Shown here in pieces: positions 29,992 to 37,227 of a DNA stretch of 64,000 bases; position 1 is the stretch's first letter; each line of letters starts with the position of its first letter. The position numbers and the translations under genes are program-made. The notes beneath the pieces are model-generated. The model saw only the letters and a list, made by a program, of their open reading frames with translations, ran no database searches and was not told where the DNA came from. Location of the stretch: contig CANLCX010000004.1 of NCBI GenBank assembly GCA_947489315.1, positions 1 to 64,000 on the forward strand, written 5' to 3'. This DNA is from an uncultured Sphingomonadaceae bacterium (GTDB lineage Bacteria > Pseudomonadota > Alphaproteobacteria > Sphingomonadales > Sphingomonadaceae).

Positions 29992-30176
29992 CACCACGGC
30001 TCTATCTTGCAGCAAAGCTCTGAAAAAATGGTTAATATTTTGTGATAGCATCTAGGAACAGCGCAGATATCCGGCTTTCCTACATGGGCACCACTATGAT
30101 ATTATGGGTTCGGCTCTTTCTCAATTTGGAATATCCTCTACAGGCGCTTATTTTGGCCGAAAATGTCAAACGTTCC

Positions 30177-30312
30177 GGCGCTATAGGCTGTGATTTGTGT
30201 GAACTTTGGATTGGATTAGTGGTTCCTTGGTGTGGGCATAAGAGTTTTGACTCGTCAGCGGCGGGCTGTTGTAATGCCTCAAAAGGACAGTATGCAGGTT
30301 GTCAACTTCGCC
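30177..30312 (+). repeat. Leader-associated repeat, copy A (upstream of msrB)
   Basis: This 136-nt sequence reappears at 36192-36336 on the minus strand. Conserved blocks are TGTGATTTGTGTGAACTTTG, GGTTCCTTGG, CTCGTCAGCG and, at the end, CAGGTTGTCAACTTCGC. It ends 45 bases before the msrB ATG in the sense orientation. Parts are open in the msrB frame, but differences between copies are mostly non-silent, so coding is doubtful. I recognise no RNA family or insertion element. Confidence 0.75.
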
Positions 30313-30357
30313 GAAGCATGGCTTGACGCCAGCCCCTTTTCTCCCCATTTTAAAGTC

Positions 30358-30756
30358 ATGGAAAAAATTACGCTCAGCGCGGATGAATGGCGCGAAAAAC
30401 TCTCTCCCGAACAATATCATGTCCTGCGCGAGGCCGGAACCGAACGCGCCTTTACCGGCGAGCTCAATGCCGAAAAACGCGATGGCGCGTTTTTTTGCGC
30501 GGGATGCGGCACCAAATTATTCGATGCGACAAAGAAATTTGACAGCGGTTGCGGCTGGCCAAGCTTTACCGAACCATCTGAGGCAGAAGCGGTAACCGAA
30601 ATCGAAGATTTGAGCCACGGTATGCGCCGGGTTGAAGTGCGCTGTACCGGCTGTGACGGTCATTTGGGCCATGTTTTCCCAGACGGCCCAGCCGCAAATG
30701 GTCTGCGCTATTGCATGAACAGCGCCGCGATGGAATTCGAACCAAAAGAGGCCTGA
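30358..30756 (+). CDS. msrB: Peptide-methionine (R)-S-oxide reductase
   Basis: A 132-residue enzyme that repairs oxidised methionine (R-sulfoxide) in proteins with thioredoxin. Zinc is bound by C47/C50 (CAGC) and C96/C99 (CTGC); the catalytic cysteine is C119 in RYCMNSAAMEF. SGCGWPSF and GHLGHVFPDG complete the family signature. I start at the ATG at 30358, where MsrB homology begins. An in-frame GTG/ATG series upstream runs through the repeat at 30177-30312 and could add up to 42 residues. No msrA is adjacent. Confidence 0.94.
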   Translation: MEKITLSADEWREKLSPEQYHVLREAGTERAFTGELNAEKRDGAFFCAGCGTKLFDATKKFDSGCGWPSFTEPSEAEAVTEIEDLSHGMRRVEVRCTGCDGHLGHVFPDGPAANGLRYCMNSAAMEFEPKEA

Positions 30757-30868
30757 TAAGCCTTCGACAAGCTTTGCGCAGATTTTACTGTCCTGCATCG
30801 TTCAGCATGCAGTAAGACGACAACACGCTAAAAACGCATATAGTTAAGCGTATAGTGAATGGGATGAT

Positions 30869-32989
30869 ATGGCGCGGGGCAAAAAACGCAGCAAACAACC
30901 GGGACCGGTTCGCAAATGGTTTTTCCGGATAGTCAAAGCCGGTTTGGTCGTTGGACTGCTCGGCTTTATCGCGCTTGTTGTCGCAGTTACAGTTATCCGG
31001 TCGTCTTTACCGGGATATGAAGATCTAAAATCTTCCCCCAATGGCCAGATGATCCGTGTGCTTGACGTCAGCGGACGCGAGCTTTTTTCCATGGGACCGA
31101 GCTATGGCCAATGGCTGGAATATGAAGATATTCCCCAAGTGATGATTGACGCCATGGTGGCCGTTGAAGACCGGCGCTATGAGAGCCATTTGGGTGTCGA
31201 CCCGATCGGGATTGCGCGCTCCATCAAAGTGCGAATGGAACGCGGGCGCTGGGCGCAAGGCGGCTCGACCATTACCCAGCAGTTAGCCCGCAATATCTTC
31301 CTCAACAACAGCCGGACCTTTGGCCGTAAAGGCCGCGAGATCATGCTGGCGCTGGCCATCGAACGCAAATTTTCCAAAGAACAGATTTTGGAACTTTATC
31401 TCAACAAGGTTTATTATGGCGGCGGCGCTTACGGAATTGACGCAGCGTCTCGCCGGTTTTTTGCCCATAGCGCGACCGAACTGAGTCTAGCGGAGGCAGC
31501 GATCATCGCCGGATTGGTCAAGGCACCATCACGCTATTCCCCAACGGCCGATGCGCAAGCCGCAATCGACCGCGCAACCGTTGTGCTGCGGGTCATGCAA
31601 GATGCCGGCGCGATAACCGCAGCCCAAGCAGCCGAAACCAAGCCAACAGCGGTCGAGATGGCACCCGAACCAAGGCAAAATAGCGTGCGCTATTTCACTG
31701 ATTGGGCCTTGCCGCAACTGGACCTCCTGATTGACGAGACGGTGGAACCCATTGAAGTGTGGACCACATTGGATCTGGGTATGCAGAGGGCCGCGACCAG
31801 TGCCATCCAAACCGGTGTTCCCGGGGGCGTACAGGGCGCACTAGTCGCGATAGATCGCGACGGAGCCGTGCGGGCAATGGTCGGTGGCACCGATTATGTC
31901 ACCTCCAATTATAACCGCGCAACCCAGGCCGTGCGGCAACCCGGATCCGCGTGGAAAATATTCGTCTATATGGCGGCGCTCGAAGCTGGTTACTCACCCA
32001 ATGACATCGTGACGGACCAACCTATCCAGATAGGCGACTGGCAACCGCGCAATAGTGGGGGCAATTATGCTGGTGATATTAGCCTGCGCAGCGCCTTCGC
32101 TTATTCCAAGAATACCGTCGCTGCTGCCATTGGCAATGACATCGGCACATCAACGGTAGCCAATATGGCCCGACGGTTTGGTATCAGCACCCCGATTGAC
32201 GTCTATCCTTCAATGGTGCTCGGCACATCTGATGTGCGGTTGCTCGAAATGACCCGGGCATTTGCGTCCGTCAATGCCAAAGGCATCGCGATTACGCCCT
32301 ATGCGATCACCAAAGTGACCACCATCAAAGGCGATGTCCTTTACAAGAGCAAATTTGACGGCAGCCGCGTTCTGGTCGATCCATGGGTGGCCGCCGGTAT
32401 TACCGACCTCATGCAGACGGCCGTTAATACCGGTACCGGCAGAGCAGCACAAATTGGCCGTCCGGTGGCAGGTAAGACGGGAACAACTAGCAGCAACAAG
32501 GACGGATGGTTTCTAGGCTTTTCGAGCGGCCTGACGACCGGCGTTTGGATGGGCCGCGATGATGCCAAAGCCGTGCGTGGTCTACAAGGCGGGCGAGCGC
32601 CAGCCGCTGCCTTTGCTGCCTTTATGAAGGTTGCTGTCGCGAAACGGAAAGTCGAGAAATTTGAAACCGACCTGGTCTTGCCTGACTGGCAGCTGGAGCC
32701 AGATGACCAAGAATTATACGGCGCACCGGAAGACGGGATCTATGTCGACGAAAATGGCATGCCGATCGAATCCGGTGAGGGACTGGAATATGATCTGGAA
32801 GGCGGTCAAGCCGAAGACGGTCCGCCGCAACTGGATCAGGGGTGGATTGATTCCGTGTTGGGCAGAGGCGAAGAAGATGCGCCGAAGAAACCGGCGCAAA
32901 ATCAGAATATACCGCCCGCAGATGAACCGTCCGAACCGGCAAGGCCGAATGCGCCTGTGTCTATTTTGCCAAAACCAGCAGAAGAATAG
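30869..32989 (+). CDS. Class A penicillin-binding protein (PBP1a-type)
   Basis: A 706-residue bifunctional peptidoglycan synthase anchored by an N-terminal helix (residues 23-45). The glycosyltransferase domain has EDRRYESHLGVD, GGSTITQQLARN, KGREIMLALAIER and LYLNKVYYGGGAYG. The transpeptidase domain has the active-site S360-A-W-K363, S413-K-N415 and K536-T-G538. The acidic, proline-rich tail after residue 590 is not catalytic. It belongs to the PBP1A family in COG terms, but lacks an OB/ODD domain between the catalytic domains. GGGATGATATGG surrounds the start. Confidence 0.95.
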   Translation: MARGKKRSKQPGPVRKWFFRIVKAGLVVGLLGFIALVVAVTVIRSSLPGYEDLKSSPNGQMIRVLDVSGRELFSMGPSYGQWLEYEDIPQVMIDAMVAVEDRRYESHLGVDPIGIARSIKVRMERGRWAQGGSTITQQLARNIFLNNSRTFGRKGREIMLALAIERKFSKEQILELYLNKVYYGGGAYGIDAASRRFFAHSATELSLAEAAIIAGLVKAPSRYSPTADAQAAIDRATVVLRVMQDAGAITAAQAAETKPTAVEMAPEPRQNSVRYFTDWALPQLDLLIDETVEPIEVWTTLDLGMQRAATSAIQTGVPGGVQGALVAIDRDGAVRAMVGGTDYVTSNYNRATQAVRQPGSAWKIFVYMAALEAGYSPNDIVTDQPIQIGDWQPRNSGGNYAGDISLRSAFAYSKNTVAAAIGNDIGTSTVANMARRFGISTPIDVYPSMVLGTSDVRLLEMTRAFASVNAKGIAITPYAITKVTTIKGDVLYKSKFDGSRVLVDPWVAAGITDLMQTAVNTGTGRAAQIGRPVAGKTGTTSSNKDGWFLGFSSGLTTGVWMGRDDAKAVRGLQGGRAPAAAFAAFMKVAVAKRKVEKFETDLVLPDWQLEPDDQELYGAPEDGIYVDENGMPIESGEGLEYDLEGGQAEDGPPQLDQGWIDSVLGRGEEDAPKKPAQNQNIPPADEPSEPARPNAPVSILPKPAEE

Positions 32990-33012
32990 ATAACCAACCT
33001 ACTCGCGGCTGC

Positions 33013-33762
33013 TTATGCTTCGCGGGCCGGTGCGCCAATGAGGTGCAGGGCAGATCCATGCTTTTTGAGCCAGTGATCGGCGTCGCGTCGTTCACCCTCG
33101 AATATGGCATCCAGCAAAGCGTAGAACGATGGGCTGTGGTTCATATGACGCAAATGAGCAACTTCATGCGCGACCACAGAACGGCGTACCATCGGCGGGG
33201 CCATAACCAGCCGCCAGTTTAATCGTATCGCTTTGCGCCCGGAACAGCTGCCCCAGCGGCGACGGGCATCACCCACGGATAGCGTTGGTAGTTCTGTGTC
33301 AGCCCGCTCGCAATAATAAGCTAGATCATCGCTATAAATGGTCCGTGCTTGGTCTTTCATCCAGTCTAATACACGGGCTTCAACGCGTTCTTCCGGGCCG
33401 CCAACTTGGATTTCATCGTCTTTTTTCAATGGCTTTCGACTGAATTCACTGGACCAGCGAACGAAATGGCTTTGGCCAGCAAACGCCAATTCGGTACCGT
33501 TGATGATCGGAACCGGCGGCAGCGCATCGGCAAAGTGGGCTGCGAGCCAATCGGATTTAGACTGGGCAAAACGCAGCGCCTGTGCGGTATCGGCATAGCG
33601 AGGCATGGTCAGCCGAACCTCGCCTTTCACTGTATCAGCCGAGACAGCGATCGAACGCGACTGCACCAATTTACGAACGCGCAAGGGATAGAAACGCCCC
33701 TCGAGCTCGATTTCTAATTCGTCCTGTTCCACCGGAACGGATCGCGAGTTAGAGCGGCTCAT
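33013..33762 (-). CDS. YgjP-like M48-type metallopeptidase (DUF45)
   Basis: A 249-residue protein of the YgjP/SprT-like DUF45 family. The zinc motif HEVAH is at residues 199-203 with a further H at 209 in HMNHSPSFY. RRRWGSCS upstream is the other family hallmark. I start at the ATG at 33762, which overlaps the end of the upstream YcgN-like gene by 14 bases; a longer frame to 33855 would overlap more and adds unconserved sequence. It is the third gene of an SCO-YcgN-YgjP run on the minus strand. The substrate is unknown. Confidence 0.88.
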   Translation of the reverse strand: MSRSNSRSVPVEQDELEIELEGRFYPLRVRKLVQSRSIAVSADTVKGEVRLTMPRYADTAQALRFAQSKSDWLAAHFADALPPVPIINGTELAFAGQSHFVRWSSEFSRKPLKKDDEIQVGGPEERVEARVLDWMKDQARTIYSDDLAYYCERADTELPTLSVGDARRRWGSCSGRKAIRLNWRLVMAPPMVRRSVVAHEVAHLRHMNHSPSFYALLDAIFEGERRDADHWLKKHGSALHLIGAPAREA

Positions 33763-34195
33763 CGAGAATATGCTGTTCAATCGGCCCAGCTTCCACCTCC
33801 GTAATAACCTTTCCGCGAATGGAATTTCCCGTGTTGTGAATGGTCTCACGATCACCAGAAATCAGATAATGCCATTCTGGGAGCGGCAGGTCCCGTGCCC
33901 GCATCTTATATGCACAGCTGTCAGGTAACCAGGTGAAAGTTTCGAGCTTACCGCGGGTCAATCGCACACAATCCGGTACATAATAGCGGCGGCGGCGATA
34001 GTCGCTGCACTGGGCAGTTTGCGTATCCAGCAACTTGCAAGCAATATTGGTCATATAAATCTGACCATCATCCTCATCTTCGGCTTTGAGCAAACAGCAT
34101 TTTCCACATCCATCGCACAAGGCCTCCCATTGTCCGCGGTCCAGCTTATCAAGCGGCTGTTCCCAAAAAGGAGGAGAATCGGCTATCGTGTCCAC
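33749..34195 (-). CDS. YcgN family cysteine cluster protein (UPF0260)
   Basis: A 148-residue cytoplasmic protein with the YkgJ/YcgN cysteine cluster: CDGCGKCC at residues 28-35, then CKLLDTQTAQCSDYRRR and PDCVRL, and a single later cysteine in LPDSCAYK. The cysteines probably bind a metal, perhaps iron-sulfur or zinc. FWEQPLDKLDRGQWEALC is the conserved N-terminus. It overlaps the upstream SCO gene by 13 bases and the downstream YgjP-like gene by 14, so the three are co-transcribed. Function not known. Confidence 0.92.
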   Translation of the reverse strand: MDTIADSPPFWEQPLDKLDRGQWEALCDGCGKCCLLKAEDEDDGQIYMTNIACKLLDTQTAQCSDYRRRRYYVPDCVRLTRGKLETFTWLPDSCAYKMRARDLPLPEWHYLISGDRETIHNTGNSIRGKVITEVEAGPIEQHILDEPL

Positions 34196-34788
34196 CGCTT
34201 GATTTCATCCGCCACCTGTTGCGGTGTACCATCAAAGGGAAGGAGGGCAATCGGCTCACCATCCGGTCCGAACAAATAACCTTGCCGGCTGTGGTCCACT
34301 AGATATTCGCTAAAACCTGGGCTTTCGCGTTTATTATAAATGATCAGATATTTCTTCGCGACCGCTGCAATTTCATCAACGCTTCCGGTTAGTCCGATCA
34401 ACCGTGGGTGGAAATTATCGGTATATTGCTTGAGCTGTTCCGGCCGATCGCGCTCCGGATCAATGGAAATGAATATCGGCTGGATCTTCTCCGCTAGCGC
34501 CGGATCTTCCTTTTCCGCGAGCGTAAGCCCATTCATCAAATTCGCGAGATCTATCGGACAAACATCAGGGCAGTAGGTAAAACCAAAATAGATGATCCGA
34601 TATTTACCAGCAAAATCCGTGTCAGAGCTTTTCCCACCATCCTGATTGGTCAGCGTAAAACTGCCGCCAATTTTTGCGCCAGCAAGCGGCGCTTCTTCTT
34701 CGACATTATCTGAAGAAGCCGGGTTGCAGGCCGGCAACAGCGCCATTACAAGAACCGCAGAGATAGCGGATAGGAATTTGTTCATCAT
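34183..34788 (-). CDS. SCO1/SenC family copper-binding lipoprotein
   Basis: A 201-residue thioredoxin-fold lipoprotein anchored in the periplasm. The lipobox is LPAC with C21. The copper-binding CPDVC gives C73 and C77, and the conserved histidine is in LVDHSRQGYL. SCO proteins deliver copper to the CuA centre of cytochrome c oxidase, or act as thiol oxidoreductases. No oxidase genes are nearby. The start is at one of two adjacent ATG codons; an in-frame ATG at 34800 is four residues longer. It heads the SCO-YcgN-YgjP operon. Confidence 0.92.
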   Translation of the reverse strand: MMNKFLSAISAVLVMALLPACNPASSDNVEEEAPLAGAKIGGSFTLTNQDGGKSSDTDFAGKYRIIYFGFTYCPDVCPIDLANLMNGLTLAEKEDPALAEKIQPIFISIDPERDRPEQLKQYTDNFHPRLIGLTGSVDEIAAVAKKYLIIYNKRESPGFSEYLVDHSRQGYLFGPDGEPIALLPFDGTPQQVADEIKRWTR

Positions 34789-34890
34789 GCGGCCAGACAT
34801 GGTCTGCTAGGGGATAATATTCAACCGATAATTGACGGAATCTATTGGCAGATGACAATTGGGCCGTCAAATCTGGATAGGGCAATATTT

Positions 34891-35559
34891 ATGTTTTGGG
34901 GTAGCAGTAAAATTTCACGGTCGAATGATCCACATAAAGGGAAAAGCAGCATTGGGCGTTTTTTCCTTAGCCTCATGGTCGTGTGTTCTCTGGCGCTTCC
35001 TGCTGTGGCTACAGCCCAATTTTCCAGCAGCTATAATTTCCTGAAAGCGGTGAAAGACCGTGACGGGACCGAAGCCACCAAATTTTTGAATCAACCAGGT
35101 ACTGTGATCGTCAACACCCGGGATATTTCAACTGGCGAGACAGCCTTGCACATCGTGGTCGCCCGCCGTGATGCCACCTGGACCGGCTTTTTGTTGCAAA
35201 AGGGTGCCAACCCTAATCTCCGCGACAAGCAGGGCAACACGCCGCTGATGCTCGCGACGCAATTGCGTTTCGTGGAAGGGGCCAGAGTGTTGCTCGCGAA
35301 AAAAGCGGATGTTAATCAGACCAATAATCAGGGTGAGACAGCCTTGATCCGCGCCGTGCAACTGCGCGATTCGGAAATGACACGGCTGCTATTGAAAAGC
35401 GGTGCAGACCCCGACCGCCCCGACACGTTGGCAGGGCTTTCCGCTCGCGATTATGCCACACGAGATCGGCGCGCTGCTGCGATATTGAACGAAATTGAAA
35501 AAGCAGATGCGGAAAAAAAACCGAAAGCCGAAGGTAAGTTTTTTGGACCAGAAGGTTAA
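34891..35559 (+). CDS. Exported ankyrin-repeat protein
   Basis: A 222-residue protein with an N-terminal signal segment (SIGRFFLSLMVVCSLALPAV, about residues 21-40, preceded by a charged stretch) and at least three ankyrin repeats between about residues 65 and 200: TGETALHIVVARRD, QGNTPLMLATQLR and QGETALIRAVQLR. A lysine-rich tail follows. Ankyrin repeats mediate protein binding; no partner is evident. I use the ATG at 34891; an in-frame start at 34852 would add 13 residues. It is divergent from the SCO gene. Confidence 0.85.
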   Translation: MFWGSSKISRSNDPHKGKSSIGRFFLSLMVVCSLALPAVATAQFSSSYNFLKAVKDRDGTEATKFLNQPGTVIVNTRDISTGETALHIVVARRDATWTGFLLQKGANPNLRDKQGNTPLMLATQLRFVEGARVLLAKKADVNQTNNQGETALIRAVQLRDSEMTRLLLKSGADPDRPDTLAGLSARDYATRDRRAAAILNEIEKADAEKKPKAEGKFFGPEG

Positions 35560-35583
35560 GTCACCCATCCAACATATTTTCGT

Positions 35584-36126
35584 TCAGTAAAATTCTCGTG
35601 CCTCCGGGTCAATCCAGCCGTTGACCGCAGACAGCCGCAACATCGACCGCCGCGCGAGCCTCATCGTCTCGGCCTTGCGCCGTGCTGGCGCTAGAGCATG
35701 GGTCGCGGCCGGCCGGATCATTTCTGCATCATAAGCATCCGCGATGATCAATCCGGACCTTTCGGGTAAGAAATCCGGGCGATTAAGTGGCGAGACATCC
35801 AGTTCACCAGGGACCGCCCAATAAAAGCGGTCGCAATAATCAAGATATTCCATCCACTTATTGTCGCCCAACAAATCTCCGCGTGCGACCTTTATTTCGA
35901 CAATTACGATCTGCCCCTTGGCATCTACGCCCATCAGGTCTGCCCGTCGTTTATTGGGCAGGCTGACTTCGGAAAGGACCATGATGTCATGTCGCGAAAA
36001 TAAGCGCGCCACACCGCGAGCCACTGCGGCCGCGCCAGTCAAAGGAGTCAAATGTTCCTCCTGCTGATCGGCGTTGGCAATCAAAGCAGGGGTGGCCAAA
36101 GGCGAATCGCTAGGTTCTATCATCAT
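35584..36126 (-). CDS. mmcB: MmcB family DNA repair protein
   Basis: A 180-residue protein of the MmcB family, first described in Caulobacter as a LexA-controlled, mitomycin-related repair gene. It has a PD-(D/E)xK nuclease-like core: RRADLMGVDAKG, then VIVEIKVARGDLLGD, where the aspartate and ExK residues would bind metal. DKW-like NKWMEYLDYCDRFYWAVP follows. Start chosen at the ATG at 36126 (M at 36123 is also possible). A second copy of the leader-associated repeat lies about 65 bases upstream in the same orientation. Confidence 0.87.
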   Translation of the reverse strand: MMIEPSDSPLATPALIANADQQEEHLTPLTGAAAVARGVARLFSRHDIMVLSEVSLPNKRRADLMGVDAKGQIVIVEIKVARGDLLGDNKWMEYLDYCDRFYWAVPGELDVSPLNRPDFLPERSGLIIADAYDAEMIRPAATHALAPARRKAETMRLARRSMLRLSAVNGWIDPEAREFY

Positions 36127-36191
36127 GACGGGAGAGTAGAACATAAAAAGAACAAAATAAAGCCGCTTGTCTTTTCCGGACATGATCCGGT

Positions 36192-36336
36192 GCGAAGTTG
36201 ACAACCTGTACACAGTCCTTTTGGCGCGTTGCACAGGGTCGTCGCTGACGAGCCAAAACGCCTATGTCCACTTGCGTCCACGCCAAGGAACCGCGAGGCC
36301 AATCCAAAGTTCACACAAATCACAGCTTATAACGCC
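36192..36336 (-). repeat. Leader-associated repeat, copy B (upstream of mmcB)
   Basis: On the minus strand this 145-nt stretch aligns with copy A at 30177-30312 over its whole length, apart from a 13-base insertion after the GGTTCCTTGG block. It carries the same conserved blocks in the same order and lies upstream of mmcB in the sense direction. Orientation and distance to the start codon are thus alike in both copies. Confidence 0.75.
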
Positions 36337-36477
36337 AGATGATTCGAGAGTTTTGACCCTGCACCAGTTCGGCAAATATTATTCAAATATGAGAAAGAGC
36401 GACCGCCCAATTATCACATAACGACACCTGTAGGAAAGAGCGGCGGCGCCTTCGAGCAAAACCTGAGCTGCCAAAAA

Positions 36478-36503
36478 TAAAGGCCCCCGAACGGGAGCCT
36501 TTA
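36478..36503 (-). terminator. Intrinsic terminator of the cell-wall hydrolase gene
   Basis: TAAAGGCCCCCG and CGGGAGCCTTTA form a 12-bp stem (one wobble) with a 2-base loop. On the minus strand a run of T follows. It lies 23 bases beyond the stop of the SleB-type gene. Confidence 0.82.
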
Positions 36504-36525
36504 TAAAATCTCTTGATGTTCAAAA

Positions 36526-37227
36526 TCAGCGATAGAAGATATGATTATCGATCGTCGCCATCCGTTGGAGCCGCCAGCCCGGCGATACATAGCGGGCATG
36601 GAAAAACAAAGCGCCTTCGACGGGGCTTTTCCAACCGTCATTCATCGCAATTTTTGAAATTGCGACGGCATTGCGCCAATGACGATGCCCTTTGTCAATC
36701 CGCGGCATTTTACCACCCCGAATGAAGGAAAACTGCTTGCGCTGGTAAACTACACCGCAAAGACTGTTCGGGAAACGCGAGGACGCGGCCCGCGCCATGA
36801 CAACCCGCGCTACGGCAAGCTGACCGGCTAGTGTTTCGCCTTTGGATTCAAAATAGACAGTACCAGCAAGGCACTGCATTTCTTTGCTCAGGGAACCGTC
36901 AACTGTCTGCTGTTTCACCAGTTCACGTAGCGAACCAGCGCCTGTATCGTTAAAATCAACGGTTTCGGTAGAGGCCCGCTCTTCATTAGCGCGCTTATCT
37001 GCGTCGATCACATCTTGAGGAATTACAGAAACCACTTCCTGCGGCTCCCCGAAAATTACGGGAGCGGCTTCATCATCAGCTTCCAACATAGCTGGATCAA
37101 TGACAATTTCGGTTTCTGGTGTCTCATCATTGGCTTCCAATGCGAATGATGCATCGGTCACTGCAAGAGCGGCGACCGCAGAAAATGCAAGCGAAGCGAC
37201 GCTTGCAGCTTTAAAAATTTTGCTCAT
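36526..37227 (-). CDS. SleB-type cell wall hydrolase
   Basis: A 233-residue exported protein. The signal peptide covers residues 1-30 and is followed by an acidic linker of about 70 residues. The SleB/Hydrolase_2 domain (about 115-233) has AGTVYFESKGE with the likely catalytic glutamate, then VVMARAASSRFPNSLCGVVYQ and KQFSFIRGG. Such enzymes cleave peptidoglycan glycan strands; here it would act in cell-wall remodelling, since no sporulation genes are present. It is monocistronic with a terminator just downstream. Confidence 0.9.
   Translation of the reverse strand: MSKIFKAASVASLAFSAVAALAVTDASFALEANDETPETEIVIDPAMLEADDEAAPVIFGEPQEVVSVIPQDVIDADKRANEERASTETVDFNDTGAGSLRELVKQQTVDGSLSKEMQCLAGTVYFESKGETLAGQLAVARVVMARAASSRFPNSLCGVVYQRKQFSFIRGGKMPRIDKGHRHWRNAVAISKIAMNDGWKSPVEGALFFHARYVSPGWRLQRMATIDNHIFYR

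Follow-up and report, generated by a model that had tools for sequence, protein, structure and literature searches.

A dispersed, partly boxA-led family of promoter-like elements with lineage-specific repeats in the Sphingomonadaceae

Antitermination at boxA is familiar mainly from ribosomal RNA (rRNA) operons and from clustered regularly interspaced short palindromic repeat (CRISPR) arrays, whilst multi-copy intergenic non-coding sequences, some of them with promoters, include the Correia-type elements, miniature inverted-repeat transposable elements (MITEs) and the STAR and BOX repeats. Among operators, the Pho boxes are direct repeats with a fixed offset of 11. The occurrence of boxA before non-coding RNAs and CRISPR arrays has already been described (PMC7862264; PMC10250234). 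Here we analyse two related sequences within a window of 64,000 nucleotides (positions 1 to 64,000 of contig CANLCX010000004.1, assembly GCA_947489315.1) from an uncultured Sphingomonadaceae bacterium, one lying upstream of msrB on the plus strand (copy A) and the other upstream of mmcB on the minus strand (copy B). Each is the 3' portion of a longer element made up of a header, a boxA, a linker and a series of short repeat units. Our preferred, if tentative, reading is that each element joins a promoter to an array of lineage-specific protein sites set in helical phase, with a boxA between them in those elements whose RNA is not translated.

Anatomy and genomic placement of the elements

The two stretches (30174-30311 on the plus strand and 36339-36192 on the minus strand) were 76% identical over ~140-148 bp and recovered one another by reciprocal BLASTN (E-values of 7e-26 and 3e-26), with their blocks in the order given in the initial annotation and with each closer to the other than to any further copy. 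The shared extent of ~140 nt proposed there is real, but the elements themselves are longer, starting at 30075 (+) in copy A and 36438 (-) in copy B, each with an exact header and a boxA. The order of parts is the header CTTTCCTACA (30075-30084, + strand, and 36429-36438, - strand), ~10 nt, a -10-like TATGATA, an rrn-type boxA, a free linker and then the units. The header would supply the -35 side of a promoter, and the -10-like letters between header and boxA in the window copies are TATGATATT or TGTGATAAT, the former being read in copy A at 30095-30103 (+), a position kept in many other headers. Pattern matching placed boxA, GCTCTTTCTCA, at 30113-30123 (+) and 36390-36400 (-), and in both copies its letters are those of the rrn-leader boxA of Sphingomonas paeninsulae (GCTCTTTCTCATTG), the corresponding leaders of Sphingobium herbicidovorans and Novosphingobium resinovorum having GGCTCTTTGACATTG and GGTTCTTTGACATTG.

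Behind the linker each window copy carries one T-type unit, TGTGATTTGTGTGAACTTTG, and one C-type unit, AGGACTGTGTNNNNNTTGTCAACTTCG, again located by pattern, at 30189-30208 and 30284-30310 (AGGACAGTATGCAGGTTGTCAACTTCG) on the plus strand in copy A and at 36305-36324 and 36193-36219 (AGGACTGTGTACAGGTTGTCAACTTCG) on the minus strand in copy B. Both types can be read as two halves of ~9 nt, TGTNANNNN-TGTNAACTT, plus YG; we refer to such a pair as a doublet. In their letters the units also resemble boxC as given in PMC10250234 (UCUGUGUGGG). The last unit ends 47 nt 5' of the msrB ATG (30358) and 66 nt 5' of the mmcB ATG (36126), in agreement with the 45-70 nt first reported, and the gene assignments were borne out by Pfam, msrB (30358-30756, +, from an ATG conserved in relatives) matching PF01641 (SelR) and mmcB (35584-36126, -, from its probable ATG, with a longer open reading frame (ORF) starting at 36234) matching PF06319 (MmcB-like). 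An in-frame extension of MsrB into the element, which had also been suggested, is not supported by conservation, the relatives L069, L097 and L119 having gaps of 1 or 2 nt between unit and ATG while ATGGAAAAAATY is kept (L- and G-numbers denote fetched loci and genomes, the 3.88 Mb genome that contains the window being G000).

At the msrB locus the header is conserved in three relatives save for one change in L069. Three relatives likewise keep the msrB linker block TTGGCCGAAAATGTCAAA (30153-30170, +), the greater part of which is found again at L051 in the window's own genome. A further block, GGTTCCTTGG (30221-30230, +), already pointed out in the initial annotation, is probably a relic of the flank of an older unit, since the same block directly precedes a unit in the congener G406. 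Neither copy had an Rfam match, in keeping with the earlier statement that no named family with this sequence was known to its author; the Rfam scan of the window returned only a tRNA at the gathering threshold and, at E-values up to 10, two weak matches at 36470-36556, outside both copies.

With up to three mismatches the T-type unit matched the own genome 51 times (28 forward and 23 reverse), compared with 1 + 1 for the reversed pattern, and a few of these matches, in genes or weak (e.g. L054 and L061), are probably due to chance. The C-type unit matched 10 times (7 + 3; reversed control 0). Header plus boxA, searched with a variable-gap pattern since a fixed-gap version gave no matches even in this genome, occurred 22 times. 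Seven of the 10 occurrences listed lie away from T-unit places and by eye carry other doublets, namely TGTGTAGAAACTGTATAATCT (L223, L224, L226, L228 and L229) and GTGTGACCCTGTGTGACCCT (L225 and L227). Such motifs, found genome-wide and across genera, rule against an old local duplication as the origin of the two window copies. The elements have a fixed polarity: across the 162 loci L038-L199, in which orthologues are counted repeatedly, every one of the 132 T units located 60-220 nt beyond an exact header shared its strand.

In order to assess placement we used the 18 own loci having a T- or C-type unit and a header, omitting L041 (header in an upstream ORF) and L060 (weak match). Ten point into the downstream gene and eight against the next gene, the neighbour's strand being confirmed by Pfam in 14 of the 16 cases besides msrB and mmcB and taken from ORF length only for L048 and L058, so that a position upstream of genes, as in the window, is not the rule. 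An exact or one-mismatch boxA was present in 8 of 8 antisense elements versus 3 of 10 sense elements (L058, L064 and L065), for which the hypergeometric chance, computed by hand and post hoc for an association that had not been predicted, is 165/43758 = 0.004. Such a skew would be expected of a promoter header combined with a boxA that acts on untranslated transcripts. No rRNA genes were found downstream at these 18 loci, which are followed by protein genes, sense or convergent. Sense elements point into genes for, among others, a PALP enzyme (L040; cysK as judged by eye), a formyl transferase (L042), SecG (L053), a nitroreductase (L055) and threonyl-tRNA-synthetase domains (L062), and the antisense neighbours are, by Pfam, cation efflux, cupin-like, PilZ, amidohydrolase, pyridine nucleotide-disulphide oxidoreductase, M23 peptidase, PALP and MarR proteins. 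With neighbours so mixed in function, the link to oxidative and DNA damage drawn from msrB and mmcB is not evident.

Two further features accompany some arrays. A GC-rich palindromic repeat of ~77 bp (GTGCTCCGCACTTGATGCGGAGCC...) sits between units in L039, L041 and L048 and behind the gene in L043 and L047, in or beside several arrays as though inserted. A multi-copy gene (L043, L047 and L263-L291) with nine own-genome matches, one having an internal stop, resembles phage terminase small subunits (phrog_4044) and gave no Pfam family above cut-off at L043 (1495-2367, -) and L047 (1387-2142, -); in these two full copies a T unit overlaps the stop codon (GTGTGA). Its product is unlikely to be the factor that binds the doublets, there being no match to it in G406 (97% complete) despite 29 unit matches in that genome, and distant relatives of it in G388, which has no unit or header match.

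Distribution and turnover of the doublets

Header plus boxA was found in 56 of 396 genomes of the order, representing 23 of 84 genera (reversed control 0), and all 56 are among the 313 genomes of the own family, with none in the 83 others. A sample of the class gave 4 of 385 genomes, all from the own family (five sampled), and 0 of 380 others (reversed control 1). The units are more narrowly distributed. Exact T-type units occurred in 3 of the 396 order genomes, all of the own genus, and with up to two mismatches in 17 of 32 genus genomes (13 with at least 10, four with 1-4 and 15 without), eight of the 32 falling below the quality mark and the reversed control giving one match (G412). Records carrying the T unit (74 stretches, assigned by accession prefix to nine assemblies) are Sphingomonadaceae where named, Sphingorhabdus sp. 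EL138 among them, and viral contigs contained no exact T-type unit.

The loci L038-L199 yielded 165 elements in 38 groups, 29 of them with at least two members; grouping was by single linkage of flanks, groups 0 and 5 holding more than one own locus and some members being single weak units. With groups 3 and 5 omitted, 15 groups had three or more members with a header. Their mean pairwise identity, gaps counted as mismatches, was 0.98 for headers, 0.75 for units, 0.49 for linkers and 0.51 for short flanks, and boxA, scored in 11 groups, averaged 0.74 but only 0.27 in two of them, the motif values being inflated because motifs were located by the patterns that served as search criteria. The msrB-locus alignment, judged by eye, likewise shows motifs more conserved than linkers.

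Other lineages carry doublets of their own behind the header. By eye these are TGTGAACTT-TGTGAACTTTG in G406, GCGAACATTC-GTGAACATTC in G281, GTGTGTCAG-GTGTGTCAG in G353 (three loci fetched), TGTAAAGTT-TGTAAAGTTC in G254, CGGAACTTT-CGGAACCTT in G282 and, near the own C-type, TGTCAATTT-TGTCAACTTCG in G019. Defining a doublet as two 9-mers offset by 9-11 that agree in eight or more of their nine letters, we found one within 185 nt downstream of the header at 43 of 79 header loci from 33 genomes (own-clade T-type loci excluded, and L331 dropped as a duplicate of L253), compared with a mean of 3.4 and a maximum of 8 in 100 shuffles of two-letter blocks. The same offsets gave 9 of 79 upstream and 8 of 79 further downstream, and other offsets 3-13 of 79 across the three regions. 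Two species of genus g13, G120 (L318 and L319) and G166 (L317), have inverted pairs of doublets besides the direct repeat, with a separation judged by eye at ~30-55 bp.

The doublets are replaced in place. Seven of 17 G406 stretches match own element loci through a flanking gene, at eight element positions that include msrB and mmcB, the sites of both window elements, and L062 with its threonyl-tRNA-synthetase-like gene. The unit stands at the msrB site in G406, where the pattern found no header, and in the pair L212/L227 the G406 doublet stands opposite GTGTGACCCTGTGTGACCCT of the own genome. Only one of 75 further loci matches an own element locus, L251 of G123 (genus g21), which corresponds to L040 and has the doublet CCGAACTTTCCGAACCTT. 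Some loci therefore persist while the letters recognised there change.

Spacing, RNA structure and mobility

Units number one to five per locus at spacings of 44 to >180 nt, which differ from the near-constant spacers of CRISPR arrays. Within this range the distances are periodic. When each group was counted once per distance class, the period of the unit-to-unit distances was 11.4 over 40-200 bp (n = 58; none of 3000 jitters as strong), 11.55 over 62-200 bp (n = 34; 1 of 3000), 11.45 over 62-130 bp (n = 21; 7 of 3000) and 11.6 over 62-200 bp without groups 3 and 5 (n = 25; 27 of 3000), and the units fit a ladder with a step of 11.25 and a root mean square deviation of 1.4 bp (40-130 bp, n = 45). 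Looping of Escherichia coli DNA in vivo is reported to involve ~11 bp per turn (PMC8501960), and we regard the ~11-bp phasing as a sign, and not a proof, of a DNA-bound array in the own clade.

Conserved RNA structure was absent. The mean folding z was -0.10 over 18 own elements and -0.73 over 15 G406 elements, with outliers at L039 (z -4.9) and L048 (z -2.3), both of which contain the GC-rich palindromic repeat, and none of nine predicted pairs showed two-sided compensatory change among 11 of the 15 G406 sequences (L207, L210, L214 and L222 left out). A structured RNA was rejected on these two results, and inspection by eye showed a hairpin TTTCCAACA...TGTTGGAAA in only some of the G406 copies. 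The initial annotation had offered a structured leader or small RNA family as one alternative: what holds of it is a multi-copy family with a promoter-like header and, in both window copies, a boxA, the conserved structure being the part that fails.

Its other alternative, a mobile element, gained no support from flanking duplications. Taking the header start and the end of the last unit as borders, target-site duplications over 25 groups averaged 3.88 versus 4.02 in shuffled controls (p = 0.82), and inverted repeats in the stretches adjoining the ends, the motifs themselves excluded, averaged 4.32 versus 4.00 (p = 0.064). The copies are nevertheless dispersed in varied orientation (28 forward and 23 reverse T-unit matches; 10 sense and 8 antisense elements), as is typical of MITE- or Correia-type repeats.

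Interpretation and comparison with known systems

Under our preferred reading RNA polymerase would start at the header (CTKTCCTACA, ~10 nt, a TATGATA-like -10). In antisense elements the nascent RNA would expose boxA and load a Nus antitermination complex, so being protected from Rho; in elements leading into a gene boxA is mostly missing. The polymerase would then cross the free-sequence linker and reach one to five doublets near the next gene. A lineage-specific DNA-binding protein is proposed to recognise these doublets; its copies would share one helical face, where they could bind cooperatively or form loops, and the doublets would set the amount of transcription that passes. Sense genes, msrB and mmcB among them, might thereby gain a controlled leader, and polymerase might be halted before convergent genes. 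That the elements form a Sphingomonadaceae-wide class of transcription units, boxA-antiterminated where untranslated, with phased terminal doublets replaced in concert per lineage at conserved loci as they co-evolve with a fast-evolving factor, in a molecular drive between sites and binder, is a wider proposal and a more doubtful one.

Several observations weigh against this reading. Header-to-unit phasing is weak in the own clade (n = 43, period 11.2, p = 0.02) and was not detected in the single-unit elements of G406 (n = 15, p = 0.99). Thirty-six of the 79 header loci have no 8-of-9 doublet, including those fetched from G193, G135, G184, G357, G125 and G391, and an offset varying among 9, 10 and 11 is unusual for one DNA-binding fold. 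boxA was exact at 10, one mismatch away at one and missing at seven of the 18 own header loci, and some conserved units (groups 8 and 22 and most of group 5) lack a header. The fixed polarity is also compatible with an RNA motif. The L062 unit stops 15 bp short of the ATG, leaving no room for a promoter and also making a plain terminator unlikely there. Finally, the transcript, its start site and the binding protein are themselves predictions.

A rival, which we consider unlikely, is that the transcript acts as a sponge or riboregulator whose one to five linear single-stranded sites titrate an RNA-binding protein, in the manner of the CsrB-type RNAs, the sites drifting with the protein. It would account for boxA, which implies untranslated transcription above all in the eight antisense elements, for units that all lie on the header strand (132:0), for free and unstructured linkers and for the many copies per genome. 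Single-stranded RNA gives no reason for an ~11-bp ladder of units, however, and the inverted doublet pairs seen by eye in G120 and G166 (g13) would be hidden in a hairpin; in 10 of the 18 own elements, moreover, the transcript would enter a gene.

An ordinary regulon, in which the header is an activator- or sigma-specific promoter, the doublet the operator of one transcription factor and antisense placement a by-product, strikes us as improbable. The 10 of 18 own elements that point into a gene, mostly without boxA, fit it, as do the sharing of L040 (PALP enzyme) with G123 and of L062 with G406 and the resemblance of direct repeats about one helical turn apart to response-regulator boxes. Eight of the 18 nevertheless run against the next gene and all eight have boxA, which looks purposeful; the neighbours have no evident common function, and a single genome holds several doublet types (T/C, TGTGTAGAAACTGTATAATCT and GTGTGACCCT twice). 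Least probable is a promoter-bearing dispersed repeat of MITE or Correia type, spread by recombination and with motifs marking its ends: copies do lie in diverse places and both orientations, four of the six G281 copies fetched agree at 88-93% across 230 nt counted from the header and copies A and B are mutually closest, but the 25 groups gave neither target duplications nor significant end inverted repeats, G406 paralogues share motifs only, orthologues keep motifs better than linkers, unlike decay, and the viral contigs searched lacked the exact T-type unit.

If the preferred reading is true, a family scattered over as many as tens of loci per genome, and led in part by boxA, would add a class of transcription unit to a large bacterial family, and the association with orientation opens the use of boxA in untranslated RNAs to direct testing. 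Conserved positions that carry lineage-specific doublets would provide a system in which to follow how a binding protein and its dozens of scattered sites change jointly, and from the phased arrays one would predict a binding factor that could be retrieved with one oligonucleotide.

Word searches of an open literature library found no description of these elements. With the leader of rRNA operons, as described in PMC10250234, they share the boxA letters, a position soon after the promoter and untranslated RNA downstream; unlike it they have no rRNA downstream, another promoter motif, doublets that follow, and no boxA in 7 of 18 cases. The boxA-containing leaders of CRISPR arrays (Stringer et al., as cited in PMC7862264) also combine a promoter and a boxA leader with tandem short repeats behind it, whereas here one to five units follow at changing spacing, without fixed spacers and at many loci per genome. 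Correia-type elements, MITEs, STAR and BOX repeats are similarly multi-copy, intergenic and non-coding, and differ in that target duplications were not found here and that the motifs outlast the linkers at orthologous loci. Pho boxes share a direct repeat about one turn apart and, in several genera, a TGTNA-like core, but not the variable offset of 9-11, the lineage-specific letters or the location of the array downstream of the promoter. To our knowledge, lineage-specific doublets with in-place turnover have no counterpart among described systems. Judged by its sequence features, the family would be a variant of the boxA-led units, in which these doublets and their turnover appear to be the new part.

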